Origin: Lysobacterales bacterium
GTDB taxonomy: Bacteria; Pseudomonadota; Gammaproteobacteria; Xanthomonadales; Xanthomonadaceae
DNA: 64,000 nucleotides
Direction of reading: 5' to 3'
NCBI GenBank assembly: GCA_017302135.1
Contig: JAFLDZ010000020.1
Location: forward strand, 1-64,000
Part shown: piece after piece, positions 11,030-58,627 of the stretch
Layout: every line of letters starts with the position of its first letter
Numbering within the stretch: the first letter of the stretch is position 1
Position numbers and translations under genes: made by a program
The notes under the pieces: model-generated
The model's database searches: none
The model's input: only the letters and a program-made list of their open reading frames with translations
Told to the model about the DNA's origin: nothing

Positions 11030-11404
11030 ACAGGCCGAGCGGCCGTGCATTCCGACAGACGGTCGTCGCTCGAGCGCGGCACCCGCGGCGCAAAGCTGCC
11101 CGGAAAACGGAACAAATAGCTTAAAAATCATATATTTGAGTCAATTCTCGGATGCTTCGCATGGGCCTAGTCGTATTCAGGTTGAGGAGGCTGCGGATGC
11201 TTTGAAAACGACGCCGAAGTCCGTTAGTCTGAACAAGGGAGCTTCTGCGGCAGACTCACGGCATCTTCGTCGAGCCTGCAAGCCGCATCACGCAGGGGCG
11301 CTTTCAGCTGTCGGGGCTCGGGAACACCGGGCGATACGAGAAAACTCGAGTTCGCCAAGGCGCCAATCTCGCCGATGCGATTTGACTATCAGGAGAGAAG
11401 TCTT
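11030..11404 (+). other. 375-base intergenic region, probable long leader of the TrbM-domain gene
   Basis: No gene is apparent. It contains an AT-rich patch (about 11105-11145, with TATATT at 11131-11136) that could be a promoter. That would give a 5' leader of about 260 bases. I see no match to a known riboswitch class; only a 14-codon ATG frame (11161-11205) stands out, with no support as a gene. A good SD (GGAGAGAAG) closes the region. Confidence 0.4.
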
Positions 11405-12241
11405 ATGAACAACCGCGTGATTTCCGCGCTCGCACTGGCGGTGGCCCTGGCGTCCTCGTCGGCCGCCAGCGCCCAGAGCAGCAACAACTACCAACTGCCC
11501 GAGGGCTATGACCCGGCCGGTTACAACCCGGACGCCACCAGCGGTGAGTTGCCCGAGGGCTACGATCCGGCCGGCAACAACTCGAACACCACCAACGGCC
11601 AGTTGCCGGATGGCTACGATTCGACCGTCAACACGACCACGACCCCCTCGCTGCCCAACGATATGCAGGCGACAGTCGACAGCTTGACCCAGCAGCAGCA
11701 GGGCCAAATGCTGGAAGGCGACGAAGGCACGGCCTGCGAAGCCATCCTCTGCCTCTCGAGCGGCAGCAGCCCCAGCGAGTGCATGCCGTCGCTGCGCAAA
11801 TACTTCAGCATCAATCTGAGCAAGCCGTGGAAGACCATCCAGGCGCGCATCAACTTCCTGAAGTTGTGTCCGACTTCCAACGACACCCCGCAGATGGGTA
11901 CGCTGGTCGAAGCCATCGGTAATGGCGCCGGTCGCTGCGATGCCGCCACCCTGAACGCGACGCTGAGGACGTGGACGGGGATCGACGGCGAGTACGAGAT
12001 CAGCAACCAGATGCCTTCGTACTGCGATGCGTACTTCACCCACGAATACACCGACATCGACAACACCAAGCCGTACTACGTCGAGAAGTACGTGGAAAGC
12101 AGCTATACCGACTACGAAGGCAACACCATCTATCAATATGCGGGTGGTTATTGGGTCGACGGCGGCAGTTCCGCCAAGGTTGCCGCCAATGCCAATGGCG
12201 CGATTCCGGCTTCCAAGGATCCGGCTGCGATCGGTTTCTGA
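11405..12241 (+). CDS. Secreted TrbM/KikA-domain protein with N-terminal repeats
   Basis: Predicted exported protein of 278 residues. A Sec signal peptide (1-23, ASAQS) is followed by three imperfect repeats (about 30-75) built on (Q/E)LP(E/D)GYDPAG plus an Asn/Thr/Ser-rich spacer. A Cys-rich TrbM-like domain (about 108-165) then carries ACEAILCLSS, SECMPSL and FLKLCP, four cysteines that could form disulfides. TrbM proteins belong to IncP-type conjugation systems, but no other transfer gene is nearby. The C-terminal 100 residues are Tyr/Asp-rich and unrecognised. SD GGAGAGAAG supports the start; a strong terminator follows. Likely a free-standing envelope or secreted protein. Confidence 0.7.
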   Translation: MNNRVISALALAVALASSSAASAQSSNNYQLPEGYDPAGYNPDATSGELPEGYDPAGNNSNTTNGQLPDGYDSTVNTTTTPSLPNDMQATVDSLTQQQQGQMLEGDEGTACEAILCLSSGSSPSECMPSLRKYFSINLSKPWKTIQARINFLKLCPTSNDTPQMGTLVEAIGNGAGRCDAATLNATLRTWTGIDGEYEISNQMPSYCDAYFTHEYTDIDNTKPYYVEKYVESSYTDYEGNTIYQYAGGYWVDGGSSAKVAANANGAIPASKDPAAIGF

Positions 12242-13096: not shown

Positions 13097-14785
13097 ATGG
13101 CCCGTTTTGCCGCGTTGCTGCTGTTCGCGACCCTCGCCGCCTGCCAACGCGACGCCGAACCCGTGGACCCGGGGCTTACCGTCTCCGCGCCACCACCGGT
13201 TGCGACTGCGCCGCTGACTGCGGACGAGCAGCGCATCGCCGGCGATGTGGGCTTTCTCGCCGACGACAGACTCGAAGGCCGCGAGACCGGAACGCGCGGC
13301 TACGATCTTGCCGCCGAATACGCCGCCAAACGCTTCCGCGAGATCGGGCTGCAGCCGGCGGGCGACAACGGGACGTATTTCCAGCGCGTGCCGCTGCTGA
13401 AGGCGACGCGCGAGGCCGAGGGCGCAGCGCTGACGGTCAAGCGCAACGGCCGCGAGATCGCGCTGCGCTTCCGCGAACAATTCCTGCCTGCGCTCGACTT
13501 CAACGCCAATGCGCATGCGATCGAAGCGCCAGTGGTGTTCGTCGGTCAGGGCGTGCATGCGCCCGCATTGAATCACGACGATTTCGCCGGCCTGGATCTG
13601 CGCGGCAAGATCGCGGTGCTGTTCTCCGGTGCGCCGGCGCGCTTCGACAACGATCGCCGCGCGTTCCACAGCGCCAGCCGCGAAAAGCTGCGCGAGCTTG
13701 CCGAACGCGGCGCGGTCGGTGCGGTGTTCGTCAATACGCCCCAGGACGAAGCCGGTTCGCCCTGGTCGCGCAGCGCCGACAACTGGCAGCGTTCGGGCAT
13801 GCGCCTGCGCGACGCCGACGGCAAGGGCATGAACACGTTTCCCGAGCTGCGCGCGGTGGCGAACGTCAGCGCGGCGGCGGCCGATCTGATCTTCGCCGAC
13901 GGCCCGCAGCCAGCGGCGACCCTGTTCAAGGCGGCGCAGGACGGTACGCTGAAAGGCTTCGCGCTGCCGGGCACGCTGACCATGGCCGCGCGTACGAAGA
14001 TCGAACCGGTCGAATCGCGCAACGTGGTCGCGAAACTCATGGGCAGCGATGCGGCGCTCGCCGCCGAACACATCGTCTATACCGCGCATCTCGATCACAT
14101 CGGTATCGGTGCGCCGGTCAAGGACGATAACGGCGTCGACGACGCGATCTACAACGGCGCGCTCGACAACGCGCTCGGCGTTTCGATCCTGTTCGAGGCC
14201 GCGCGCATTCTGCATGCTTCGAAACCCGCGCCGAAACGCTCGCTGCTGTTCGTCGCGCTGACGGCGGAGGAGAAAGGCCTGCTCGGTGCCGAATGGTTCG
14301 CATCGCATCCGACCGTGCCGGCGCCATCGCTGATCGCCAACATCAACATGGACATGCCGGTGCTGCTGGCGCCGAGCAAGGACGTGGTACCGATCGGCAT
14401 CGAACATTCCACGCTGAAATCGGTACTCGCCATCGCCGCGAAAGAAATCGGCGTGGATCTTTCGCCCGATCCATTCCCGGAGGAAGTGGTGTTCGTGCGC
14501 AGCGACCAGTACGCCTTCATCCGCGCCGGGATTCCTGCGGTGTATCTCAACGGCGGCACGGTGTCCGCCGACGGCGTGCGCGATCCGAACATGGCGCTGC
14601 GGAAATTCATGCGCGAGCACTACCATCAGCCCAGCGACGAAGCCACTTTGCCGATCGCCTACGGCGACGCGCTGCGGCTGGCGAAGCTCAACGCGCGCAT
14701 TGGCCAACTCGTCGGAGATGCGGCTGAGCGGCCACGATGGAACCCCGGGGATTTCTTCGGTGAAAAATTCGTGCGGCCGAAATGA
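13097..14785 (+). CDS. M28-family zinc metallopeptidase lipoprotein with PA insert
   Basis: Envelope-anchored aminopeptidase-like enzyme, 562 residues. A lipoprotein signal ends at Cys16 (LAAC). A protease-associated insert is visible around 150-280 (VFVGQGVHAPALNHDDFAGLDLRGKIAVLF). The M28 catalytic core follows: zinc ligand His in TAHLDHIGIG, bridging Asp in GALDNALGV, and catalytic Glu pair in TAEEKGLLG. Later come an Asp in NINMDMP and a His in REHYHQPSDE. All metal-site residues are present. SD CGGAG precedes the ATG. Substrate specificity cannot be read from sequence; such enzymes are common in peptide-scavenging Lysobacteraceae. Confidence 0.9.
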   Translation: MARFAALLLFATLAACQRDAEPVDPGLTVSAPPPVATAPLTADEQRIAGDVGFLADDRLEGRETGTRGYDLAAEYAAKRFREIGLQPAGDNGTYFQRVPLLKATREAEGAALTVKRNGREIALRFREQFLPALDFNANAHAIEAPVVFVGQGVHAPALNHDDFAGLDLRGKIAVLFSGAPARFDNDRRAFHSASREKLRELAERGAVGAVFVNTPQDEAGSPWSRSADNWQRSGMRLRDADGKGMNTFPELRAVANVSAAAADLIFADGPQPAATLFKAAQDGTLKGFALPGTLTMAARTKIEPVESRNVVAKLMGSDAALAAEHIVYTAHLDHIGIGAPVKDDNGVDDAIYNGALDNALGVSILFEAARILHASKPAPKRSLLFVALTAEEKGLLGAEWFASHPTVPAPSLIANINMDMPVLLAPSKDVVPIGIEHSTLKSVLAIAAKEIGVDLSPDPFPEEVVFVRSDQYAFIRAGIPAVYLNGGTVSADGVRDPNMALRKFMREHYHQPSDEATLPIAYGDALRLAKLNARIGQLVGDAAERPRWNPGDFFGEKFVRPK

Positions 14786-14930
14786 AACGAGAAGTCGCGC
14801 GAGGTACAGCTTCGCTCGATACGCTTCGTCGACGGCTCTGAAGCCTCCATTGCCGTTGAAGGCGGATTTTTGCGTTGGAGGTTGTGGGTGACCGATGCGC
14901 GCCGCTGTTCGTGCGCGGAGTGGGAGCGAA

Positions 14931-17537
14931 ATGCATCTGCTGGAACGCGAGACGCAGCTGGCCCAGCTGACCAAGGGCTACGATCACGCTCTGCACGGGC
15001 AGGGACGATTATTGCTGATACACGGTGAAGCCGGCTCTGGCAAAACCACTCTGGTCGAGCAGTTTCTCGCGGCCTTGCCTGCGAGAACGATGCGTTTGGT
15101 CGCCGGGTGCGAATCGTTGTCCACGGCGCGCCCGTTCGGGCCCCTGATCGATCTTGCCGAAGCGCTGCCGTCCGTCATCGCCTCCGCCGTTCGTGAAGTG
15201 GGACGCAGCGATGCGCTGTTCTCCGACGTTCTCGCCTACCTGCGTCGTCCGCCGAATCCGAAAGTGCTGGTGATCGAGGACCTGCACTGGGCCGACGCCG
15301 GAACCCTCGATCTGGTGCGCTACATCGGCCGCCGATTCGCCGACGTGCCGGTGCTGTTCCTGACCACCTATCGCGATGACGATCTCGAGAACGATCATCC
15401 TTTGCGGCGATTGCTCGGCGATCTGCCGACAACCACGACCATCAGGGTAGCGGTGCCGCCGCTTTCGCATACAGCGGTGTCGACCTTGGCGCGCAATGCG
15501 CAACAGGCCGATGCAGGGCTGTACGAAATCACCGGCGGCAATCCTTTCTTCGTCACCGAAGTGCTGAACTGTCGCGACAGCGTCGTGCCGCCATCCGTCT
15601 ACGACGCCACATTGAACCGGCTGTCGCGGCTGACGGCCAACGCACGATCGGTCGCAGAGTTGGTCGCGATCAGTCCGCGCAGGATCGAACAGCGCATCGT
15701 CGACGAACTGATCGGGCAGGCCCCGAGATTGATCGATGAATGCGTCGAGAAAGGCGTGCTGCGGGTCGATGCCGGTTGGATATCGTTCCGTCACGAGCTC
15801 GCCCGGCAGGCGGCGGCGCAGTCGCTGAAGCCCGGTCGCTGCGCCGAACTGCACCGCAGCGTGTTCACGGCGCTCAGCGCGCAGATGTCCGACACGGGCC
15901 ATCTGTCGCGCCGCGTGCACCACGCACAGCTGGCACAGATGCATGCCGAGGTTCTCATGCTCGCGCCCCAGGCCGCGCGCGCCGCCGCTGCGGCCTCGGC
16001 GCATCGCGAGGCCGCGAAGCATTACACGCTCGCCTGCCGTCATGCCGCCGACCTCGATCCATCGGCACGCGCCGGATTGTTCGAGGAAGCGGCGGAAGAA
16101 TACCGGATGGTCAGCGACGTCGACGCCACCATCGAAGTCACCTGCGCCGCGCTTGATCTGAGAACGATGCTGGGGGACAGCTTGCGCCAAGGCATGAACC
16201 TGCGCCGGCTCGCGGTCGCCTTGCGCGAACGGGGCGATCGCGTCGCGTCCGAGGCCGCGATCGCGCGCGCGGTCGGGATCCTCGAACAGCACGGACCTTC
16301 GACCGAACTCGTACGCAGCTATGCCGTGCAGTCACGGATGCGCGCGTGGACCGAATACACCGAGGCGGCCCGTATCGGTGAGCGCGCACTGACCCTCGCC
16401 GAAGCCTACGAGGATCCTGCCTGTCTGGTCGAAGCACTGCACGCCTGCATGGCGGCGCGCATGTATCTGCGCGACGACCGAGTAGCGCGGGGCCAGCTCG
16501 AACGCGCGCTGCAGATCGCCATCGAGGCGAGCCTGGAAGACATGGCGGCGCAGGCATTCGTCGCCCTGCAGCTTGCCGGCGTGATCTATCGCGACCACAA
16601 CTACGCGATCGACATGGCCAACCGCGGGCTGGTCTATTGCGAAACCCGCGACCTCGACAGCTTCGTACACCAGCTGGTCGAAAACCGCGCGTTGTCGCTG
16701 TTCGAGCTCGGGCGCTGGGACGAGGCCGAAGCCGATCTTGCGCGCTGCCTCAGCGCACAGAATCTCGGCGAGCGGCTGCGCAACTCGGTGCTGTTCCTGC
16801 AGGCGAGGCTGGACGCCCGCCGCGGCCGGACCGGCTGCGACGCTTACTGGCGCATGCTCGAACGCGATACCGAAGCGGTCCCGATGGGTTACCGCGTTCC
16901 CGCCATCGCCACCGCCTGCGCCGAAGCAGCATGGCTGCGCGGCGATCTCGCCGCCGCGCAGCAGTCGGTGCGAACCGGTATCGCGACGGTGCTCACCCAC
17001 ACCGATGCGCGCCTGCTCGGCCCACTGCTGGTCTGGGCGCGGCGCTGCGGTGTCGCGGTACGCGATCGCGCGCTGGAGGTCGCGCCAGTGCACGCCTGCG
17101 AATTGGCCGGCGACATCGCCGCTGCCGCCGCACACTGGGAGGTGCTCGGCTGCCGCTACGATCGGGCCCTGACGTTGTTGCATGGCGACAGCGGGCAGGC
17201 GACCGAAGCACTGCAGGTGCTTGACGCGCTTGGCGCAAAACCCGCCGTCGAGATCGCCCGCCAACACCTGCGCGCGCTCGGCGTGCGTGGCATCAAGCGC
17301 GGCCCGCAGGCGCGCACGCAGGCCGATCCGCACGGTCTGACTGCGCGCGAGCGACAGGTGTACGAATTGCTGCAACAGGCGTTGCCCAACGCCGGGATCG
17401 CGCGGCGCCTGCATCGTTCCGAACGCACGATCGAGCACCATGTCGCGGCCGTGCTGTCCAAGCTCGGCGCCAGCGGTCGGCAGGAGTTGCTCAAACGCAG
17501 TCGTGACGCGAAAACGGTCGAGCACGAAAAAAAATAG
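14931..17537 (+). CDS. Large ATP-binding LuxR-type (LAL) transcription regulator
   Basis: Predicted cytoplasmic regulator of 868 residues. It has an N-terminal STAND/AAA-like ATPase (Walker A HGEAGSGKTT, 31-40; Walker B VLVIEDLHWAD near 112-122). A long helical, TPR-like sensor region (about 330-780) follows. The C-terminal LuxR helix-turn-helix (about 800-860) contains LTARERQVYELLQQ and the recognition segment RSERTIEHHVAAVLSKLG. This is the architecture of MalT-like LAL regulators, which bind DNA after inducer and ATP binding. SD GGGAGCG precedes the ATG at 14931. It lies just upstream of, and parallel to, two large uncharacterised genes, and may control them. Confidence 0.85.
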   Translation: MHLLERETQLAQLTKGYDHALHGQGRLLLIHGEAGSGKTTLVEQFLAALPARTMRLVAGCESLSTARPFGPLIDLAEALPSVIASAVREVGRSDALFSDVLAYLRRPPNPKVLVIEDLHWADAGTLDLVRYIGRRFADVPVLFLTTYRDDDLENDHPLRRLLGDLPTTTTIRVAVPPLSHTAVSTLARNAQQADAGLYEITGGNPFFVTEVLNCRDSVVPPSVYDATLNRLSRLTANARSVAELVAISPRRIEQRIVDELIGQAPRLIDECVEKGVLRVDAGWISFRHELARQAAAQSLKPGRCAELHRSVFTALSAQMSDTGHLSRRVHHAQLAQMHAEVLMLAPQAARAAAAASAHREAAKHYTLACRHAADLDPSARAGLFEEAAEEYRMVSDVDATIEVTCAALDLRTMLGDSLRQGMNLRRLAVALRERGDRVASEAAIARAVGILEQHGPSTELVRSYAVQSRMRAWTEYTEAARIGERALTLAEAYEDPACLVEALHACMAARMYLRDDRVARGQLERALQIAIEASLEDMAAQAFVALQLAGVIYRDHNYAIDMANRGLVYCETRDLDSFVHQLVENRALSLFELGRWDEAEADLARCLSAQNLGERLRNSVLFLQARLDARRGRTGCDAYWRMLERDTEAVPMGYRVPAIATACAEAAWLRGDLAAAQQSVRTGIATVLTHTDARLLGPLLVWARRCGVAVRDRALEVAPVHACELAGDIAAAAAHWEVLGCRYDRALTLLHGDSGQATEALQVLDALGAKPAVEIARQHLRALGVRGIKRGPQARTQADPHGLTARERQVYELLQQALPNAGIARRLHRSERTIEHHVAAVLSKLGASGRQELLKRSRDAKTVEHEKK

Positions 17538-17725
17538 GGGCTACCGCATCGCGAATTGGGTGCTCCCACCGATTCTCGCGTATCGCTCAATGCTTATCGT
17601 CCATCAGAACGAAATCATCCGCCGTGTCCGTGGCGGTGGGGAGGGACGATGGGTCGATCGAAGCTGCGCACCCGGTATATGCAAGTCCGCAAATCCCTGG
17701 ATGCTGAACCGGCGGGAGCGCGCGC

Positions 17726-19963
17726 ATGAGTGCCGTCGTCAGCGCCCCCGCGCGATTGCAGGCGTTCCTCGCCGCGCTGACCGAGTTGCAGGAGTCCGAG
17801 CGCGCGCCGCTACTACGGGCGTATCTGGAATACACGCTGGAACTCGCGCAAGCCAGCGAGCAACGCTATTACGATTTCCTCGGCGAATGCGCGGCATTGG
17901 CGGCCGACAATATGCAGGACATCCGGATCGAACATCTGGCGCAACGCCTTGATGCGGCCGAAAGTCCACCAGCGCGGCCATGGGGCGAGGTGGTGACCGA
18001 CGTGGCGCTCGGATTCGCGCTGCAACTGGGCGTGCTGTTGGGGTGGGAGATGGTGGCGGGTGGCGTGATCGCGCTCGCCGGAGGGCGCGCGCTGCTTCGA
18101 GCCACGAGGAGTGCGCAGATCGAAGTCGGTGCGGCACGCTCCAAAAGTTTTGAACTCGCCTCCAAGCATTGGTCCATGTGGCACACGCGCTCAAATCTGC
18201 TTCAGCTCGAATACGGTGGGTTCAGAGCGAAGTCGACCCGGGGAGGGTGGCTTGTGAGTCCCGCATCGGGCACATGGCGCTACGGTGGATCCGAGTCATT
18301 CGAAGTTCCATCGGGTTTGATCTATTCGCGCGACGGGAAGATCAGCTTGGACTACATACGCAAGGAGATCGACGATATTTCATTGGAAATCAAGCTCGCC
18401 GAAGCCGCGACGGACAGCAACAACAAACGCATGCAGGATGCGTTGAAGACCTATGAAGCGGCGCTTGCGGACGGCACGAAGGCTTCCGACAAGATCAAAT
18501 CAGAATGGGGCGATACCTGGCGCAACAATGTCGGCAACGAAAAGGGCGGGCTGTTGCTCAGCACGACCGAAGAGATCGTCAAGGCGATCGACGAGATCGG
18601 CAAAAACGCACACGCCGCTCCGCAATCGTCGACTGCGGTCGTCGAGCCGTTTCTCAGTTCGGAGGTCACCGGGCGTTATCTCGACTGGATCGGCGAGGCT
18701 TGGTTGGATACGACCGAGAGCTACGCCAACATGCGCCTGATGCTTCACGCCGCGAGCGACGACGATCTGGTCGAAGGCGATGATTTTCTCAAGATGATTG
18801 CTTTGCTCGGCACCGAAGTGCTGCCGCGATGGCAGGAATTGATCGCGAGATCGTTCGCCGCGCGGCCAGCGATCGTCAAAGGCATGGAAGCGGCGTTCTG
18901 GCGCGAATACCTCAGCGCCAACGGCATCCTTGCCGAGGCGCAACCGGTGAACAAAGTCGCGTCGTCTCCGCATTCGCCCGGTGCGATCGTCGGCGGATAT
19001 CTGATCAAATCTGCGGGCAAAGAACATGTCTATTCCGAACCGCAATTGGCTGCGATGCGGAAGATACTCGAAGAATCCAGCGTACCCGAACCATTCGAGC
19101 CGCCTCCGGCGAGCTACGACCACGATGCCTTGTTGTACCCCGGGGCGAGCAGGATTCCGCAGCCATTGGCGTCGAGCCTGTTCAGGAGATTCGCGCAGCC
19201 GTATTACGAGAATGCCAATCACGCCAAAACGCTCAGTCCTTTCGCGTATACGAGCAGTCGTTACGCCGGAGCCAAAGTGCCGCCGGAAGACGACGTCTGG
19301 GGATATCCGAATCCGGAATCCTTGCGCAAGATCGACGAGATGCGGTTCATGGTCGTGCGTTTTTTCGGGAGCCTCTCCGGCGACACGGTCGATCCGGCGT
19401 TGACCTCCGCGTTCGAGACCTTGAGTTTCATGGGATCTGTGTCTGGCGAGGAGGCGGCCCGAAGCCGGGACGACTGGCTGAGCGCACAGATGCAATGCGA
19501 CAGCGCCGATGGAGCGGCGCTCGTGGAAGCTGAAATTGTCGATACATTCTCCTCGGAACAGCAATTCAAGCGCATGGCCGAAAGAACGGGTTTGCTCTCC
19601 ACGGGCGAGATATCGCTGCAGATCGAACAGTTGAGGTTCGCGGACGAGTTGATGGACCTGAATCAAGATATCCAGGCGTACCAGTTGATGAAGACCGGGG
19701 CGCTGGAGCTCGGCGCGGCCGGCGATACGCGTACAGCAGAAGATCTCAAGATCGAAATTTCGTCGGAAAAGAGCAAGGTGCTCGAAGACTATCTCGCTCT
19801 GCTGGACGCAACCGGCGACGACAAAGAATTGCGGGGCGCCATCGAAGATCGATACCAGTCGGCAGTCGATGCGCTTCAGGGTTGGGAGCCCGGCATGGAC
19901 TGGGTGTGGTACGGCCCGAGCCAATCGCTGCCGGAAGATCCGTATGGCGAGTCGCTTCCTTGA
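17726..19963 (+). CDS. Uncharacterised 745-residue protein with a membrane hairpin
   Basis: I do not recognise a family. The N-terminal 80 residues are helical (LQAFLAALTELQESERAPLLRAYLEYTL). A Gly/Ala/Val-rich stretch at about 88-124 (ALGFALQLGVLLGWEMVAGG) looks like a membrane or pore-forming hairpin. The remaining 600 residues are soluble-looking, with mixed alpha/beta composition and an acidic C-terminus ending in DPYGESLP. No signal peptide is visible. GC content is clearly lower than in flanking core genes, suggesting acquisition. An SD-like GGGAG lies before the ATG. It is followed 81 bases later by another large unknown gene on the same strand, so the two are probably co-expressed and work together. 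Confidence 0.7.
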   Translation: MSAVVSAPARLQAFLAALTELQESERAPLLRAYLEYTLELAQASEQRYYDFLGECAALAADNMQDIRIEHLAQRLDAAESPPARPWGEVVTDVALGFALQLGVLLGWEMVAGGVIALAGGRALLRATRSAQIEVGAARSKSFELASKHWSMWHTRSNLLQLEYGGFRAKSTRGGWLVSPASGTWRYGGSESFEVPSGLIYSRDGKISLDYIRKEIDDISLEIKLAEAATDSNNKRMQDALKTYEAALADGTKASDKIKSEWGDTWRNNVGNEKGGLLLSTTEEIVKAIDEIGKNAHAAPQSSTAVVEPFLSSEVTGRYLDWIGEAWLDTTESYANMRLMLHAASDDDLVEGDDFLKMIALLGTEVLPRWQELIARSFAARPAIVKGMEAAFWREYLSANGILAEAQPVNKVASSPHSPGAIVGGYLIKSAGKEHVYSEPQLAAMRKILEESSVPEPFEPPPASYDHDALLYPGASRIPQPLASSLFRRFAQPYYENANHAKTLSPFAYTSSRYAGAKVPPEDDVWGYPNPESLRKIDEMRFMVVRFFGSLSGDTVDPALTSAFETLSFMGSVSGEEAARSRDDWLSAQMQCDSADGAALVEAEIVDTFSSEQQFKRMAERTGLLSTGEISLQIEQLRFADELMDLNQDIQAYQLMKTGALELGAAGDTRTAEDLKIEISSEKSKVLEDYLALLDATGDDKELRGAIEDRYQSAVDALQGWEPGMDWVWYGPSQSLPEDPYGESLP

Positions 19964-20044
19964 AACAGGATCACGAGCATAAACCACGCAGCGAGCATCC
20001 TCGATGCCGCGGCATGCGACAGAAACATTGATCGGAGAATCGTC

Positions 20045-23000
20045 ATGGCCATCAAACAGGAAATGTTCCGCTTCGTCAGCACCCGCCGTGTCGAGCGGGC
20101 GACCATGAGCCGCATCGCGAGCCGGTTGATCCGCGATCGTCGCAAGACCGCGCGATCATCGATGTTGTTCAAGCTGTTCGGGCCGGGACTGTACGAAACC
20201 AAGCTGGTGACGGCCAACAACTTCGCAGCTTCCGCCGATTTTCTCGCTGCGGACGATCCTGCCGCGCTGGTGCTTGAAACGGTGGCCGCGTTCTTCCGCG
20301 AGAAACTCGCGCCCGGCGTGCTGTTGGCGGAACTTGCCGAGGAATTCAAAGCCGAGTTTCCTCTGCTGTCCGGATTGCTCGAGCATGCGCCGCCTGCAGT
20401 GCTGGTGCAGAACACCAACGCCATGAACGCGAAAGTGTGGGATTCGTTTTACGCACAGACGATCCGTGGCTGCGACCGCTATGTGTCCACCAACTATCTT
20501 GCCGATGGACTGCGCGTGTATCACGTCTTCCGCCTGCTGTGGATGAGCCTGAAGCTGAAACTCGCGACCTGGGCGGGCGCCACGTTCGACGAGTACGACA
20601 CCCTGATCGATCTCAACGCGGCGTCTCTGACGGAGGACGACGACAAGCCCGACGGCAAGCCCGTCCAGACGAACCCGGCCAAAACCTTCGAGAATCTTCA
20701 GGATCTGACCCAGCGACTGACCCGGATCGATCTCGCCAGCGCCCAGCTCGACCGATTGTTCGACGCGCAGGCCACGCTCGCCGATGCGGGAAAAGATCCG
20801 AAACACGCACGGCTCAATGCCGATGCCGTCAAGCTGCTCAGCGCAGAGCCTGCGCTGGGCAAGCTCGATCTTGCGGCCGCGCCGGTGGAGCAAATCCGCA
20901 AGCAGTTGCGTATCGATCGCGAATTGACCGGGATTCGGCAGGAGATCGCGTTCAATGCGCTGGTCGACCCCGACGGCGAAGAAGCGGTCGATGCCGCAAC
21001 CAGTCAAGCGTTGGCCATGCACAAGAAAACGAAGACGCCCGCAGCTTCGCTCGTCAATCTGACCGCGCCCGGCGGCGTGTTCCGCGTCCCGCTCTCCGTG
21101 GGCGAGATGAAACCGCCCGCCGTAGGCGATCTGCTGATCGTCGAGCAGCAGTTGCGCCGTTACGAACTGGGCGAACTGGCCGAGATCCAGACGATCATGC
21201 GCGGCGAACGGCGCGAGCGCACCGTTCGCAAACTCAACCGTACCAGTCAGACAACGACCACGGAATCTTCGTTCGAACAGGAGGAATCGAGCAGCCTCAA
21301 AACCGACGAACGATTCCAGTTGTCGTCGCAGGCGCAGCAGAGTGCCGAGCAGAGTTTCAGCGTCCAGGCAGGCGTGAACGTGTCCGGAAAATTCGGGCCA
21401 GTGCAGGTCAGCGCGTCGGTCAATGCGTCCTTCGACACTTCCAAATCCTCGTCGGAGTCGACCTCGCAGGAATACGCGAAAACCGTGACCGAAGAAGCGA
21501 CCAAGCGGGTCAAGAACAGCATCAAGGAAAGCAGCTCGATCACGATCCTGACCGAGACCCAGGACACGACGCTGCAGGGGTTCAACAACGAGAAGGGCGC
21601 CGATCACGTCAACGGGCTCTATCGCTGGGTCGACAAGATCTACGACGCGCAGCTGGTGAATTATGGCCGGCGACTGATGTTCTCGTTGAACGTGCCCGAG
21701 CCGGCGGCCTTCTATCGCGGCCTCATCACCCAGAACGAAAACCAGGCGATGGCGGATCTGGTCGAACCCGTCCACCCGTCGGAGGAGGGTTTCGACAGTT
21801 TCAAGGATATCGATGATCTCAATTACGCCTGGATTGCGGGCATGTACGAAGCCAGCGTGCAGCCGCCGCCCCAGAAGCAACTCACAGGCAGCAAATCGTT
21901 CGTGTATCCCGATGCGATGCAGGCCGGGAAAATCGACGTGCACGATGCGGTCAACGACCTCAGCTATGTCGCCGGCGACGACACGCTGACCCTGGACCCC
22001 GGTTATCGGCTGCTCTCTGTAGCCGTCCACGCGCCGGTCGGCTCGGAGGGAGGCCATGAGTCGTACGTCAACGCGCTGAAGCTTGGAGAGGTGGCGGCAC
22101 CCTCCGCGCCGAAGGATGGAACCACGGTGGCCGAGGCCAATCTGCTTCTTGTACAAGTGGCGAACATGAGTTTTTTCATGTCGGTCCGCCGCGACCCCGA
22201 CAACGGCGACAAGAAGATCATCAAGACGAACTTCAACCAATACCAGACGCTCGGCAGCGATCTGCTCGCATTCGGAGATCTCGTCCAACCCGCAATCCCG
22301 GTGACCATCACCGCGAACTTCGAGGGAGTATTCGCCTTCACCGTGAGCTATGTCGCCTATCGAACCGACGAGGCCTACGATATCTGGAAAGCGAATACCT
22401 ATGCCGCCATCCTCAAGGCCTACAACGCAAAGAAACAAGCCTACGACCAAGCCAAGGCGATCGCGGAAAGCAAAGCGCAGTCCGCAACCGAGTCGAAGAC
22501 CTTTGCCCTGCGCGACGACCAGTACCGCAGCATCGAATTGACCGAACTCAAGCGCGGCTGTATCGACCTCATGAGCGAAGGTACGGCTGCTGGCTACACC
22601 TCGATCACCGTTGCGAAAGACGGCACACCGGACATCGTTCACGATCCGGCGGAAGGCGCTTTGCTCAACCATTGGCGTTCGCCGCTGGCGAACGGGTCGG
22701 TCGCCGAATTCTTCGAGTTGGCATTCGAGTGGGAGAACACCACATACCAGTTCCACCCATACTACTGGGCGGGCCACAGACGCTGGAAAGATCTCGCCCA
22801 GGCCAGCGGTGCCGATCCGGTCTTCGAGCAGTTCCTGCGCGCGGGCAACGCCAATGTCGTCGTCCCTGTCCGTCCCGGCTACGAACGGACAGTCATCTTC
22901 TTCCTGAAGACCGGCTTGATCTGGGGTGGCGGCTATCTGTCGCTGTTCACTTCGCAGGACATGCTCGATGTCTATGCAGACGTCGAGCTGGGGCGTCAAT

Positions 23001-23164
23001 TCGATCCGCCGCTCGATGTCGGAAGTCCCTGGGAAATCCGGTTGCCGACCAACATGATCATGCTGCAGGCGGACGATACACTGCCGGAATTCCCCCCCGA
23101 GGAACCGGTGGGAGCCCCGCCACCTGCCACGGAGCCTGTTCCGGACGAGACCGTGCCCTTCTGA
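20045..23164 (+). CDS. Uncharacterised 1039-residue protein with YRWVDK/NYG core
   Basis: Large protein of unknown function without a signal peptide. Residues about 395-520 are Ser/Thr/Glu/Gln-rich (TSQTTTTESSFEQEESSS, then AGVNVSGKFGPVQVSASVNA), ending in a charged helix (EEATKRVKNSIKESSS). The most distinctive part is about 522-557: GLYRWVDKIYDAQLVNYG followed by RRLMFSLNVPEPAAFY. I recall this arrangement from large unannotated proteins in many bacteria, some near phage-tail-like systems, but cannot assign a role. A short coiled coil (about 785-825) and a Pro/Glu-rich C-terminus follow. SD GGAGA precedes the ATG. A 947-codon frame opposite is a codon-bias shadow. Confidence 0.72.
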   Translation: MAIKQEMFRFVSTRRVERATMSRIASRLIRDRRKTARSSMLFKLFGPGLYETKLVTANNFAASADFLAADDPAALVLETVAAFFREKLAPGVLLAELAEEFKAEFPLLSGLLEHAPPAVLVQNTNAMNAKVWDSFYAQTIRGCDRYVSTNYLADGLRVYHVFRLLWMSLKLKLATWAGATFDEYDTLIDLNAASLTEDDDKPDGKPVQTNPAKTFENLQDLTQRLTRIDLASAQLDRLFDAQATLADAGKDPKHARLNADAVKLLSAEPALGKLDLAAAPVEQIRKQLRIDRELTGIRQEIAFNALVDPDGEEAVDAATSQALAMHKKTKTPAASLVNLTAPGGVFRVPLSVGEMKPPAVGDLLIVEQQLRRYELGELAEIQTIMRGERRERTVRKLNRTSQTTTTESSFEQEESSSLKTDERFQLSSQAQQSAEQSFSVQAGVNVSGKFGPVQVSASVNASFDTSKSSSESTSQEYAKTVTEEATKRVKNSIKESSSITILTETQDTTLQGFNNEKGADHVNGLYRWVDKIYDAQLVNYGRRLMFSLNVPEPAAFYRGLITQNENQAMADLVEPVHPSEEGFDSFKDIDDLNYAWIAGMYEASVQPPPQKQLTGSKSFVYPDAMQAGKIDVHDAVNDLSYVAGDDTLTLDPGYRLLSVAVHAPVGSEGGHESYVNALKLGEVAAPSAPKDGTTVAEANLLLVQVANMSFFMSVRRDPDNGDKKIIKTNFNQYQTLGSDLLAFGDLVQPAIPVTITANFEGVFAFTVSYVAYRTDEAYDIWKANTYAAILKAYNAKKQAYDQAKAIAESKAQSATESKTFALRDDQYRSIELTELKRGCIDLMSEGTAAGYTSITVAKDGTPDIVHDPAEGALLNHWRSPLANGSVAEFFELAFEWENTTYQFHPYYWAGHRRWKDLAQASGADPVFEQFLRAGNANVVVPVRPGYERTVIFFLKTGLIWGGGYLSLFTSQDMLDVYADVELGRQFDPPLDVGSPWEIRLPTNMIMLQADDTLPEFPPEEPVGAPPPATEPVPDETVPF

Positions 23165-23254
23165 TTCGTCGTCGACGGCGCTGTCTGCGCAGTCGCACTG
23201 GACGCAGGCAATGTCGGCGCTCGCCGGCTCGATAGCCGTACTTGCGTGTGCAGG

Positions 23255-25054
23255 TCAAGCCACGGGTTCGTGGGCGGCAGCCGACTGATCTTCCGCATCC
23301 GCTTCGAACAGTTGCTCCAGCTCGCTGCGCGCCTGCTTCGCGCTTTCCAGCAGCGCCGCTTCGTCGTCGTAGATCAGGTGTTGGCTGGCCAACAGCTCTT
23401 CGTCGTGTTCGCGGAACTTGTGCGCGCGTTGGGCTGCCTGTTCCGGCGACATGCCCAGCGCGATCAGCACATCGCGGCCCATCTCCAGACCGGAAGCGAA
23501 GGTTTCGCGGGTCACTTCCGCGCCCATATCCATCAGCTGCCATGCGTGTCGGCGGTCGTGCGCGCGGGCGAAGATTCTCAGCGTGGGATACAGCCGGCGC
23601 ACGACGCGGGTGACGCGCAGATTCGTCTCGGCATTGTCGATGGTGTTGATGAAGATGCGCGCATGACCGGCGCCTGCGGAGCGCAGCAGATCGGGGCGCG
23701 ACGGATCGCCGTAGTACACGATATTGCCGAAACGGCGTACGAAATCCACCTGCACCGCATCGGTCTCCACCGCCACGAACGGAATCTTCTGCGCCACCAG
23801 CATGCGCGCGACGATCTGGCCGAAACGACCGAAGCCGGCCAGGATCACCTGCGGATGGCCTTCGGGAATGGGATCGAATGCGCGCTTCGGCGCGGCTTCC
23901 GGATAGGCGCGCAACAGGCGCGACACGGCGATGATCGACAGCGGCGTCAGCGCCATCGACAGGCCGACGACCGCCACCAGCCGGTTCTGCAGCACGGCGT
24001 CGATGAGTTTGGCCTGGGTCGCTTCGGCCAATACCACGAACGCGAATTCGCCGCCCAGCGCCAGCACCACGCCGAGCTGCAGCGCTTCGCGCCAGTCCAG
24101 CCGTCCCGGTCGCAGGCCGATGCCGAAGAGCACGATCGCTTTGATTGAGAGCAGCGCCAAGGTACCGAAGACCACGACCCACGGTTCGGCCGCGATCAGC
24201 TTCAGGTCGACGCTCATCCCCACGGCCATGAAGAACAGGCCCAGCAGAAGCCCCTTGAACGGTTCGATCTGCGATTCGATCTCGTGGCGGAATTCGGAGT
24301 CCGCCAGCAGCACGCCAGCGAGGAACGCGCCCAGCCCCATGCTCAGCCCGGCGAGCTGCATCGTCCAGCCCGCACTGAGCACCGCGAGCAGCGCGCTGGC
24401 GGTGAGCATCTCCGGCACGCCGATGCGCGCGGCAAGACGGAACAAGTGCCGCAGCACATAACGTCCGCCGATCACCACCGCGACGATCGCGGCCATCGCT
24501 TTGAGCACCTCCTGCCACACCGGTTCCGTGCTTGCAGCCGCAGCGCCGAGCAGCGGAATCGCCGCGAGCAGTGGAATCGCGGCCAGATCCTGGAACAGCA
24601 GGATCGCGAACGCGAGCCGCCCATGCGGGCTGTTGATCGCCTTGCGCTCGGACAACAGCTGCAGACCGAACGCAGTGGACGACAGCGCGAGCGCAAGCCC
24701 GACCACCAGCGCGGCTTTCCACGACAGACCGAGCGCGAGCGCCAACGCGGCCAGGATCAGACCCGACAGCGCGACCTGCAGTCCGCCGACGCCGAACACC
24801 GGCTTGCGCATCAGTTTGAGGCGCGCGAACGACAGCTCCAGACCGATGACGAACAGCATCATCACCACGCCGATCTCGCTGGCGGCCAACACCGGTTCGG
24901 GATCGCTGATCACGCGCAGACCGAACGGGCCCAGCACCACGCCCGCCGCAAGATAACCGAGCACCGCGCCCAAGCCGAAACGCTTGAACAACGGCACCGC
25001 GATCACTGCGGCCAACAGAAAGACCAGCGCGAGTTGCAACCCGTTGCCGTGCAT
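23255..25054 (-). CDS. KefB/KefC-type potassium/proton antiporter
   Basis: Monovalent cation:proton antiporter-2 family. The 599 residues hold an N-terminal transport domain of about 12 helices (1-385), with GLGAVLGYLAAGVVLGPFGL, the helix-5 region ALALSSTAFGLQLL, FQDLAAIPLLA and LGAFLAGVLLADSE. A cytosolic RCK/TrkA-N domain (about 400-520) contains the nucleotide-binding ILAGFGRFGQIVARML. Such proteins export K+ in glutathione-gated detoxification; no KefF/KefG partner is adjacent, so gating is uncertain. ATG 25054 is preferred to GTG 25060 because the SD GGAGGT is correctly spaced only for the ATG. Confidence 0.88.
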   Translation of the reverse strand: MHGNGLQLALVFLLAAVIAVPLFKRFGLGAVLGYLAAGVVLGPFGLRVISDPEPVLAASEIGVVMMLFVIGLELSFARLKLMRKPVFGVGGLQVALSGLILAALALALGLSWKAALVVGLALALSSTAFGLQLLSERKAINSPHGRLAFAILLFQDLAAIPLLAAIPLLGAAAASTEPVWQEVLKAMAAIVAVVIGGRYVLRHLFRLAARIGVPEMLTASALLAVLSAGWTMQLAGLSMGLGAFLAGVLLADSEFRHEIESQIEPFKGLLLGLFFMAVGMSVDLKLIAAEPWVVVFGTLALLSIKAIVLFGIGLRPGRLDWREALQLGVVLALGGEFAFVVLAEATQAKLIDAVLQNRLVAVVGLSMALTPLSIIAVSRLLRAYPEAAPKRAFDPIPEGHPQVILAGFGRFGQIVARMLVAQKIPFVAVETDAVQVDFVRRFGNIVYYGDPSRPDLLRSAGAGHARIFINTIDNAETNLRVTRVVRRLYPTLRIFARAHDRRHAWQLMDMGAEVTRETFASGLEMGRDVLIALGMSPEQAAQRAHKFREHDEELLASQHLIYDDEAALLESAKQARSELEQLFEADAEDQSAAAHEPVA

Positions 25055-25143
25055 GCGCACCTCCGCGTTCGACCTTACCTGCAGCGCGCGGATGTCGCAA
25101 TCGCGTTATTCTGCACAACGTGTTCCATGCCCCGGGTCGCCCC

Positions 25144-44704: not shown

Positions 44705-44817
44705 TGGCACTCAACGCGGCAAGCGCGAAAGCGCAGGCTGGGGTGGAACAGGGCTGGCCACGTGCGCGCTGAGGAAGCCAGGGGCCGAATGTCGGGGGAC
44801 ATTCGGCCCCTTTTTTT
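44705..44817 (+). ncRNA. Predicted small RNA, about 113 nt, sigma-54-driven
   Basis: The span from the predicted start to a very strong terminator contains no plausible open frame. The terminator is a perfect 13-bp stem GGGGCCGAATGTC/GACATTCGGCCCC (44781-44810) with a GGGG loop and seven T residues. The body has unpaired GGA motifs (GTGGAAC, GAGGAAG), which might contact a CsrA/RsmA-type protein, and a GGCCACGTGCGCGC stretch that can fold back. It lies alone between mnmG and a convergent lipoprotein gene. Identity unknown; I do not recognise it as a named RNA. Confidence 0.68.
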
Positions 44818-48485: not shown

Positions 48486-49451
48486 TTATCCAAGTTGCGT
48501 CGCTGCGACTGCTGGCTTCGATTGTGCTTCCGCGATGTGCAGTACTTCGCCCAACAGTAGATACGCATTCAAGAAGAGAGCCTTTGCTTCCTCGGCCGTA
48601 ACGTCACTGTGCACACCCGTCGAGACTCTTTCATAGAGGTTGCTCAGATTCTGACGAATCTTAGTCCTTCTCGACCTGCTCTCGGTTCCGCTGTGGACGA
48701 AAGCGTTGATCCTATTTAGATGCCTATTCGGACCAAGAGACACCTCGTTTTCTCCCAATACAATCGTCCCGTCACGGGGTGGAAAGATTGAGTCTGCAAA
48801 TGAATCAATGATTCTACGCACGGTGGTCAATGCTTGGCTGACGGACTCGGGATCTCCGTCCGCTAGCCTACTCATGACCGAGGGAATTTGTTCAAGAACA
48901 GGTCCGCAGCTGTTTGAGATAAGCAAGTCAACTTCGGCTTTATATCGTTCAAAAATAGACTCAGAAAGACTGTCGAACTCCTTCTCGTAGTAGACCTCGC
49001 TTACGAACGTATGAAGGTTGGCGAGCACCCTACTTTTGATCCCACTTAGCCTCGCAATGTTGTTGGTCGTCAAAGCCAACTGTTTCTCATGCATTTGCAT
49101 TACGCGAAACGCCCAGTCTCCGCTGGTGTCAGGGGTAGATAGTGAGCGTAGCTTTGTGGTTTCAGCTATAAGTGCTGCTTCATGCTGCGCGAGCGGTCCC
49201 CAGAAACCAGTTTTCTTCTCCTTGTCTACCCATCGGCCCGTTATGCCCATGTACTTTAGAGATATTGGGCTTGAAGAGTTGTAGCCCTTCATCTCTAACT
49301 GCACCCAATATTTGATCTCGTCGGAACCCACCCATCGGGCTAGACGTGATGCTTTCAGGAGTAGAGATTCAGCACCTAGGCGACTTAGCTCAATATCGTC
49401 AAGCAGCTCTTTGACGAGCTCAAGTATGTGCTGCGATTTGCTTTGGTTCAT
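48486..49451 (-). CDS. AbiTii-type predicted defence protein
   Basis: Encodes 321 residues. The N-terminus, HILELVKELLDDIELSRLGAESLLLKASRLA followed by EIKYWVQLEMKGY (each quoted in part), matches the AbiTii domain pattern: a short leucine-rich helix pair, then (E)xxxW(I/V)xxE(L/M)xGY. AbiTii proteins are linked by context to phage abortive infection; the mechanism is not established. The C-terminal 190 residues are helical with no recognised domain. Its G+C is much lower than the neighbours (near half rather than two-thirds), which suggests recent transfer between SnoaL and bioC. ATG 49451 is chosen since the domain begins six residues later. No integrase is visible beside it. Confidence 0.7.
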   Translation of the reverse strand: MNQSKSQHILELVKELLDDIELSRLGAESLLLKASRLARWVGSDEIKYWVQLEMKGYNSSSPISLKYMGITGRWVDKEKKTGFWGPLAQHEAALIAETTKLRSLSTPDTSGDWAFRVMQMHEKQLALTTNNIARLSGIKSRVLANLHTFVSEVYYEKEFDSLSESIFERYKAEVDLLISNSCGPVLEQIPSVMSRLADGDPESVSQALTTVRRIIDSFADSIFPPRDGTIVLGENEVSLGPNRHLNRINAFVHSGTESRSRRTKIRQNLSNLYERVSTGVHSDVTAEEAKALFLNAYLLLGEVLHIAEAQSKPAVAATQLG

Positions 49452-49579
49452 GAAACATCCTGAATCGCCTAGCGCGCATTCGATCCACCTCCAAAGGGGT
49501 GGTGCTGCATATTGAGCCGGCATCTTCAAATGTGTCAATCAATCTCGCAAACGGCAGTCGCACAACACTCCAGCCCCCC

Positions 49580-58490: not shown

Positions 58491-58627
58491 ATGGTCAACT
58501 TACCCGTGACAGATGCAACGTCTGTCGCAGACCAGCCCTCTCCCCTAGGGTTGGTCGCCGGAACGTAAGACTCTCCCCAAGTCCCGTTCCCAGCCCCGCC
58601 GGTTCCCCCGCCTGCGGGGCTTTTTAT
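58491..58627 (+). ncRNA. sX13-like small RNA downstream of polA
   Basis: A candidate promoter (TTGAAC 58456-58461, TCTACA 58479-58484) is followed by stem-loops. GACAGA/TCTGTC is a short hairpin. ACCAGCCCT pairs with AGGGTTGGT (nine pairs) around a CTCCCCT loop, and a terminator AGCCCCG/CGGGGCT (58592-58621) ends in TTTTTATT. Unpaired C-rich runs (TTACCC, CTCTCCCC, GTCCCGTTCCC) fit a regulator that pairs with G-rich ribosome-binding sites. Xanthomonas sX13 has such C-rich loops and, as I recall, lies beside polA. Position and design match; sequence identity must be checked. Confidence 0.65.

Follow-up and report, generated by a model that had tools for sequence, protein, structure and literature searches.

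A mobile three-gene cassette of a Lysobacterales bacterium and a widespread protein family proposed to carry exchangeable effector partners

Polymorphic toxin systems are represented by CdiA, Rhs, LXG and TANFOR proteins (Zhang et al. 2012, PMC3482391; for TANFOR, PMC7073777). TANFOR toxins, the closest published class from Bacteroidota, carry Sec signals and have links to the type IX secretion system (T9SS; PMC7073777). Here we describe a locus in a 64,000-nucleotide stretch of DNA from a Lysobacterales bacterium (contig JAFLDZ010000020.1, positions 1 to 64,000; called the window below), where genes for a LAL-type regulator, a protein of 745 amino acids (aa) and a protein of 1039 aa follow one another within an inserted cassette. 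Our results make it probable that this cassette is a two-part toxin-like effector system with its own regulator, the 1039-aa protein being the constant carrier and the 745-aa protein the partner found in this lineage. The division into carrier and partner is well supported by comparative genomics, and both words are used below in this proposed sense. An earlier reading of the window, the original prediction, had seen in the three genes a possible self-contained module such as a toxin-like or surface complex.

An inserted cassette of three genes

The cassette, its genes and its flanks are located in the window as follows.

14786..23296: inserted cassette of 8,511 bp with regulator, partner and carrier, delimited by alignment with an empty site
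14895..17537, forward strand: LAL-type regulator of 880 aa (counted from the first start codon) or 868 aa (second ATG)
17726..19963, forward strand: partner open reading frame (ORF) of 745 aa, intact, with a Gly/Ala-rich hydrophobic stretch at residues ~86-125
20045..23164, forward strand: carrier ORF of 1039 aa, intact
13097-14785: flanking gene, presumably of an M28 peptidase
23255-25060: flanking gene, presumably of a cation antiporter

Both names of flanking genes were given from their sequence, not by family scan. The insertion, already suspected in the original prediction, is demonstrated by an empty site in a congeneric genome (compared loci are labelled L and compared genomes G, each with a number, G000 being the window's own genome). 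Between the peptidase and antiporter genes, G1038 has 67 bp where the window has 8,511 bp, and the flanking DNA of the two is 90.7% and 92.2% identical. Two other genomes of the genus, G1037 and G1039, also lack the cassette, and the two flanking genes adjoin tail to tail in all three. The cassette starts directly past the stop codon of the peptidase gene, and at its other end it takes the place of the final ~14 antiporter codons. A search of the cassette ends for terminal repeats found none.

The only long genes inside the cassette are those for the regulator, the 745-aa protein and the 1039-aa protein. The same trio, in the same order and with protein identities of 63, 65 and 68%, respectively, is found in a congener (locus L045, contig G1044:C241), where the genes around it are different. 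It follows that the three genes move together, as a single mobile unit. The regulator contains AAA_16 (3.3e-20) and GerE, a LuxR helix-turn-helix domain (8.2e-12), according to Pfam. Its only full-length match among 20 relatives occurs in G1044, the genome of L045, at the same position in the trio. No other finding speaks as strongly as this conservation for the regulator being part of the module, and the LAL-type protein is probably the regulator of the cassette. The supposition of a self-contained module including this gene is thus borne out by the empty site and by the trio being kept together in the congener.

The two large ORFs lie in tandem on the same strand, separated by 81 nt, as predicted. 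Their lower G+C content was confirmed, with 0.598 for the 745-aa gene and 0.606 for the 1039-aa gene against a mean of 0.659 (standard deviation 0.027) for genes of the window; the corresponding values at third codon positions are 0.725, 0.778 and 0.811. The drop of ~2 standard deviations in both genes is genuine though modest. The regulator gene, with 0.668, does not share it.

The carrier family and its partner genes

The 1039-aa protein has no match in Pfam, NCBIfam, PHROGs, PADLOC or PDB sequences. Nevertheless, at least 455 relatives were found in one scan of species genomes, from which 80 loci were retained; 14 further loci came from plasmids. Alignment-based searches relied on a smaller set (A2), since the sequences of the genome-wide alignment A1 had diverged too far to serve as a query. 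Carriers occur in Pseudomonadota, Bacteroidota, Actinomycetota, Cyanobacteriota, Bacillota, Chloroflexota, Myxococcota and Acidobacteriota, and in Archaea too. The earlier remark that linked part of this protein to large, widespread and unannotated bacterial proteins was therefore right. Their spread is sporadic: of 398 genomes sampled from the phylum, 7 have a carrier. On the carrier tree the window protein shares a separate, long-stemmed branch of good support with the carriers of L045 and of a Bradyrhizobium locus, L046. A family with hundreds of bacterial and archaeal members thus has no Pfam or NCBIfam entry. No description of it was found in the open literature; this is weak evidence of absence, as subscription papers and preprints were not covered. 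For a phage-structural origin no support was found: direct search of viral contigs and phage records gave no relatives, and a PHROGs tail tube match (E 0.009, 2 of 70 sequences) is weak and was taken as chance.

A survey of gene neighbourhoods, proposed together with the original prediction as a check, showed each carrier beside one exchangeable partner gene, in many cases for a toxin or for an enzyme that is extracellular or damages membranes. Neighbouring genes were predicted with a simple script based on codon usage, and individual calls may be off. By these calls, 78 of 83 loci have the carrier and its downstream gene on one strand, and in 58 of 83 the downstream gene begins within 100 nt. 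The upstream gene, serving as internal control, is equally close in 12 of 79 loci (Fisher p 8.6e-13). The downstream partners fall into ~23 families, mutually unrelated according to BLAST and HHalign. Pfam identified Patatin (9), PT-TG (3), PAD, Tox-MPTase4 and PhoD (2 each) among 68 partners, and further LodA, PLD, CdiA_C tRNase, M23 and Rv2525c-like domains; more than half of the partners are without any Pfam match. NCBIfam adds patatins resembling the Legionella effector VpdC, and lectins. A start resembling a signal peptide is almost never present on partners (heuristic assessment). Placing the 12 partner clusters on the carrier tree requires at least 18 changes (a raw count). The partner families interleave on this tree, and patatin and PhoD partners each appear in separate clades with distant carriers.

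Many partners from Flavobacteriia have a common N-terminal part of ~600 aa and different C-terminal tips. Orphan tips matching the tips of other toxins were found at L103:14291-15154, L109:16953-17573, L062:14376-14936 and L121:15341-15874. Among ten small genes tested behind partners of Flavobacteriia and relatives, six encode SUKH-1 (SUKH/SMI1) immunity proteins, and Imm22 was found in addition. Beyond the partner and these flavobacterial immunity genes, no other neighbourhood gene is conserved. Genes of M15/VanY-type peptidases, resembling endolysins, lie near carriers in two Flavobacteriia (L032:8399-8899, L060:17372-17875), where they are possibly an element of release by lysis.

The position of the partner varies. 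A lipase-like family stands upstream of the carrier in L042 and L029, PAD is divergent in L073, and the partner of L072 type is convergent in L102 and lies upstream on the opposite strand in Legionella. The partner-before-carrier order of the window is thus unusual, not unique.

Homologues of the 745-aa protein are present in two other loci only, L045 (65% identity) and L046 (~23%, diverged and at a contig edge). The L046 copy can be aligned through to the C-terminus, and the motif WEP..W.WYGP ends all three proteins. No further homologues were found in 299 genomes of the order, 369 genomes of the class, or plasmids. BLAST and HHalign profile comparison showed no relationship to the ~23 other partner families. 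Since the orthologs adjoin only those carriers that are closest to the window carrier, the 745-aa protein is read as this lineage's own partner and, judging from these comparisons, would best be understood as a local, exchangeable "cargo" of the carrier. Co-occurrence of the two genes in other genomes had been named as a check. The pair does recur in L045 and, diverged, in L046, but elsewhere the carrier, found in hundreds of loci, pairs with other families, so that no fixed pair exists across genomes. The Gly/Ala stretch, predicted to resemble a membrane hairpin, is present but only borderline transmembrane (best 19-residue Kyte-Doolittle mean 1.75, at residue 101); it would suit a membrane-active protein, which is only a hint.

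The window's genome contains two carrier copies. The second (G000:C10:27439-30564, equal to L037:7440-10565) belongs to another clade and is followed by a gene for a 614-aa partner (L037:10743-12587), whose ~50% identical counterparts stand behind carriers of the cyanobacterium L057 and the actinobacterium L110. A secreted S8 protease with I9 propeptide and P-domain is encoded both near this second carrier (L037:3105-4712) and directly downstream of the cassette carrier in the congener (L045:13405-14522). The two copies are 74% identical; the protease could mark a shared insertion region or act as an activating protease. In L097, L108, L122, L089 and L102, from Legionella and some others, the carrier is split or shortened and its gene begins at the core. 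In L097, L108 and L089, the N-terminal motif of the family sits on the gene immediately upstream.

Carrier architecture and proposed function

The carrier is composed of the following parts, given in residues of the 1039-aa protein and, for two of them, also in window positions.

N-terminus: FRFVxxR motif
~40-325: helical N domain
359-408 and 493-551: beta-ribbons
21239..21565, forward strand, residues ~398-507: Ser/Thr/Glu/Gln-rich block with an amphipathic beta-hairpin, of low AlphaFold confidence and high conservation
21620..21703, forward strand, residues 526-553: signature YRWVDK..NYGRRLMF..PEP
~612-773: jelly-roll
775-843: long helices
C-terminus: conserved domain

The block and the signature behind it, noticed in the original prediction, are both present, and the signature proved to be the hallmark of the family. 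Its motifs YRWVDK, NYGRRLMF and PEPA start at residues 526, 539 and 551. Residues Y526, Y540, P551 and P553 are invariant in alignment A4, and the same columns have a conservation of 1.0 in a 79-row alignment. An N-terminal motif of the type [hydrophobic]-F-[RK]-F-x-x-x-R, a loose pattern, is found in 68 of the 72 members with a complete start. Inside the block, an alternating Gly/Ala/Val hairpin turns at YGP.

AlphaFold2 monomer models were obtained for the full window carrier (mean predicted local distance difference test, pLDDT, 67; predicted template modelling score, pTM, 0.47) and for the core of a central Nitrosospira member (70 sequences; 75 and 0.54). In both, very long beta-strands flank the block, and a jelly-roll, long helices and the conserved C-terminal domain are recognized. 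Mean conservation of the block is 0.5, about equal to that of the C-terminal domain, while the jelly-roll has 0.13-0.29. Because it is conserved to this degree despite low model confidence, the block is no ordinary linker. A structure search with the carrier models, also suggested earlier, found no fold match for the whole protein; the jelly-roll alone resembles known folds (P-domain, GOLD, BcsB and capsids; best Z 9.3). This arrangement is common, and the likeness therefore says little on function.

We propose that the carrier would present or deliver its separately encoded partner, and that the two proteins may act jointly outside the producer cell with the partner as the active agent. The tools of the carrier would be the N-terminal motif with the helical domain, a long beta-stalk with the amphipathic hairpin, and the variable jelly-roll. 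Beta-ribbon and hairpin may form a device for membrane crossing or docking, and the jelly-roll is a possible target-binding part; as far as the models indicate, a pore or translocator function is plausible. The toxin-like character first suggested for the module thus finds support in the gene neighbourhood of the 1039-aa family, but the roles have to be reassigned, the 1039-aa protein being the conserved carrier. No evidence turned up for a surface complex formed by the pair. It is conceivable, although we hold it only tentatively, that the family represents an undescribed class of protein-delivery device in many bacterial phyla and some Archaea, in which a stand-alone carrier, needing no classical secretion machine, would bring complete enzymes or toxins of unrelated kinds to the surface or the interior of target cells.

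Several observations weigh against the carrier and partner system as proposed here. No secretion signal was identified, and inspection agrees with the earlier remark that the pair has no apparent signal peptides. The 745-aa partner has no match in Pfam, NCBIfam, PHROGs, PADLOC or PDB and no recognisable toxin or enzyme motif, so that the window cassette contains no recognisable toxin domain. It also contains no immunity gene, and immunity genes were seen in Bacteroidota loci only. Profile comparison revealed no docking domain common to the partners. AlphaFold confidence is moderate, with the hairpin as the least confident part; in fold searches with both models the whole carrier was left unmatched and no known translocase was prominent, only the jelly-roll being really tested.

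In a more specific form of the proposed system, carrier oligomers would assemble their Ser/Thr-rich hairpins into a transmembrane beta-barrel through which the partner is threaded, as in the B component of AB toxins. Long beta-ribbons (27, 21, 21 and 31 residues) beside the block with its hairpin would suit such a pore, as would the separate, adjacent "A-like" genes and the high conservation of a block that is unstructured in AlphaFold, next to a jelly-roll that is the most variable part. However, the PDB profile search gave no sequence match to solved translocases, CDTb appeared in Foldseek at a non-significant level (E 0.2, probability 0.08), and in beta-alternation the hairpin comes no higher than 8th to 24th among core windows; we therefore regard the beta-pore as rather doubtful. 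The carrier might instead be an adaptor or chaperone that loads the partner onto a secretion machine already present in the cell, such as the type VI secretion system (T6SS), in the manner of MIX- and FIX-type delivery domains. A delivery domain and its toxin on adjacent genes have precedent (PMC7073777). Carriers lack signal peptides and the window's genome has a gene for the T6SS sheath protein VipB, both compatible with an adaptor. It is nevertheless unlikely, since carriers also occur in Bacillota, Actinomycetota, Cyanobacteriota and Archaea, groups that lack a T6SS or have it only exceptionally. Moreover, contractile-system families are missing from the 25 most frequent neighbour Pfam families, and no sheath of phage or extracellular contractile injection system type was found in the window's genome.

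Patatin and PLD partners match models of phospholipase effectors (from cyclic-oligonucleotide-based antiphage signalling systems, CBASS, and antiphage phospholipase). Together with the sporadic, mobile distribution and the lack of signal peptides, this would suit an anti-phage or abortive-infection system, in which the carrier is sensor or scaffold and the partner kills within the same cell. Such a function is improbable: patatin partners fit the Legionella effector VpdC better (9.4e-16 vs 3.4e-5), neither the 745-aa nor the 1039-aa protein has a PADLOC match, and SUKH immunity genes with orphan toxin tips indicate interbacterial toxins. The partners also include LodA-type oxidase, M23 peptidase, PhoD and arginine deiminase, which are mostly extracellular enzymes. 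Very improbable is an assembly that serves structure or storage and not attack, with jelly-rolls forming a shell or a surface fibre to display or house an enzyme. The jelly-roll does resemble folds of capsids and endospore appendages, and the cargo enzymes are without signal peptides, but the fold is a common one and toxin domains with immunity genes would be unexpected for a storage shell.

The carrier and partner system favoured here gives a first candidate role to two large hypothetical proteins, and the family marks a gene position where effectors and toxins are exchanged. If the 1039-aa family indeed acts as carrier, it offers a way to find new toxins and enzymes through the gene next door, and raises the question of how leaderless protein pairs work outside the cell.

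Three further features of the window lie outside the cassette. An unknown minus-strand ORF of 350 aa (48486-49538) occupies another low-GC island (2-kb GC down to 0.556) among higher-GC genes. A secreted-looking 288-aa protein (11375-12241) has imperfect LPEGYDPAG repeats close to its N-terminus. Rfam recognizes the known Xanthomonadaceae small RNAs asX1 (44708-44816) and sX13 (58517-58626).

Comparison with known systems

Like binary AB toxins of the protective antigen, C2II or CDTb type, the locus has translocase-like and enzyme-like proteins on separate adjacent genes and, by analogy, a Ser/Thr-rich amphipathic hairpin in a beta-rich core. Unlike them, the carrier has no signal peptide and no sequence or significant fold match, and its partner range is far wider. 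Homology to B components was not recovered, with no Pfam match to a B-component family in 49 carriers at E<=0.05 and no relevant PDB profile match, and the carrier can therefore not be filed as an AB toxin. With MIX and FIX domains of T6SS effectors the family shares the possible location of delivery protein and toxin on adjacent genes, but it is not confined to T6SS-bearing bacteria. The partner in L054 is a LodA homologue, and what appears to be a gene for a FAD protein comes next, as in lodAB loci of the lysine oxidase dependent on cysteine tryptophylquinone (CTQ); in contrast to these, the LodA-type gene lies behind a carrier gene. No TANFOR model was among the NCBIfam matches of the 49 carriers or the 68 partners (13 families listed).

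The likeness to polymorphic toxins consists in a constant part with exchangeable toxins, in orphan tips and, in Flavobacteriia loci only, in SUKH immunity; that the constant part acts in delivery is what we infer. Contrary to polymorphic toxins, the constant part is here a separate, unannotated protein without signal peptide, distributed over many phyla and Archaea, and many partners are whole enzymes instead of C-terminal tips. The family thus follows the logic of polymorphic toxins, but with an unannotated and separately encoded carrier.
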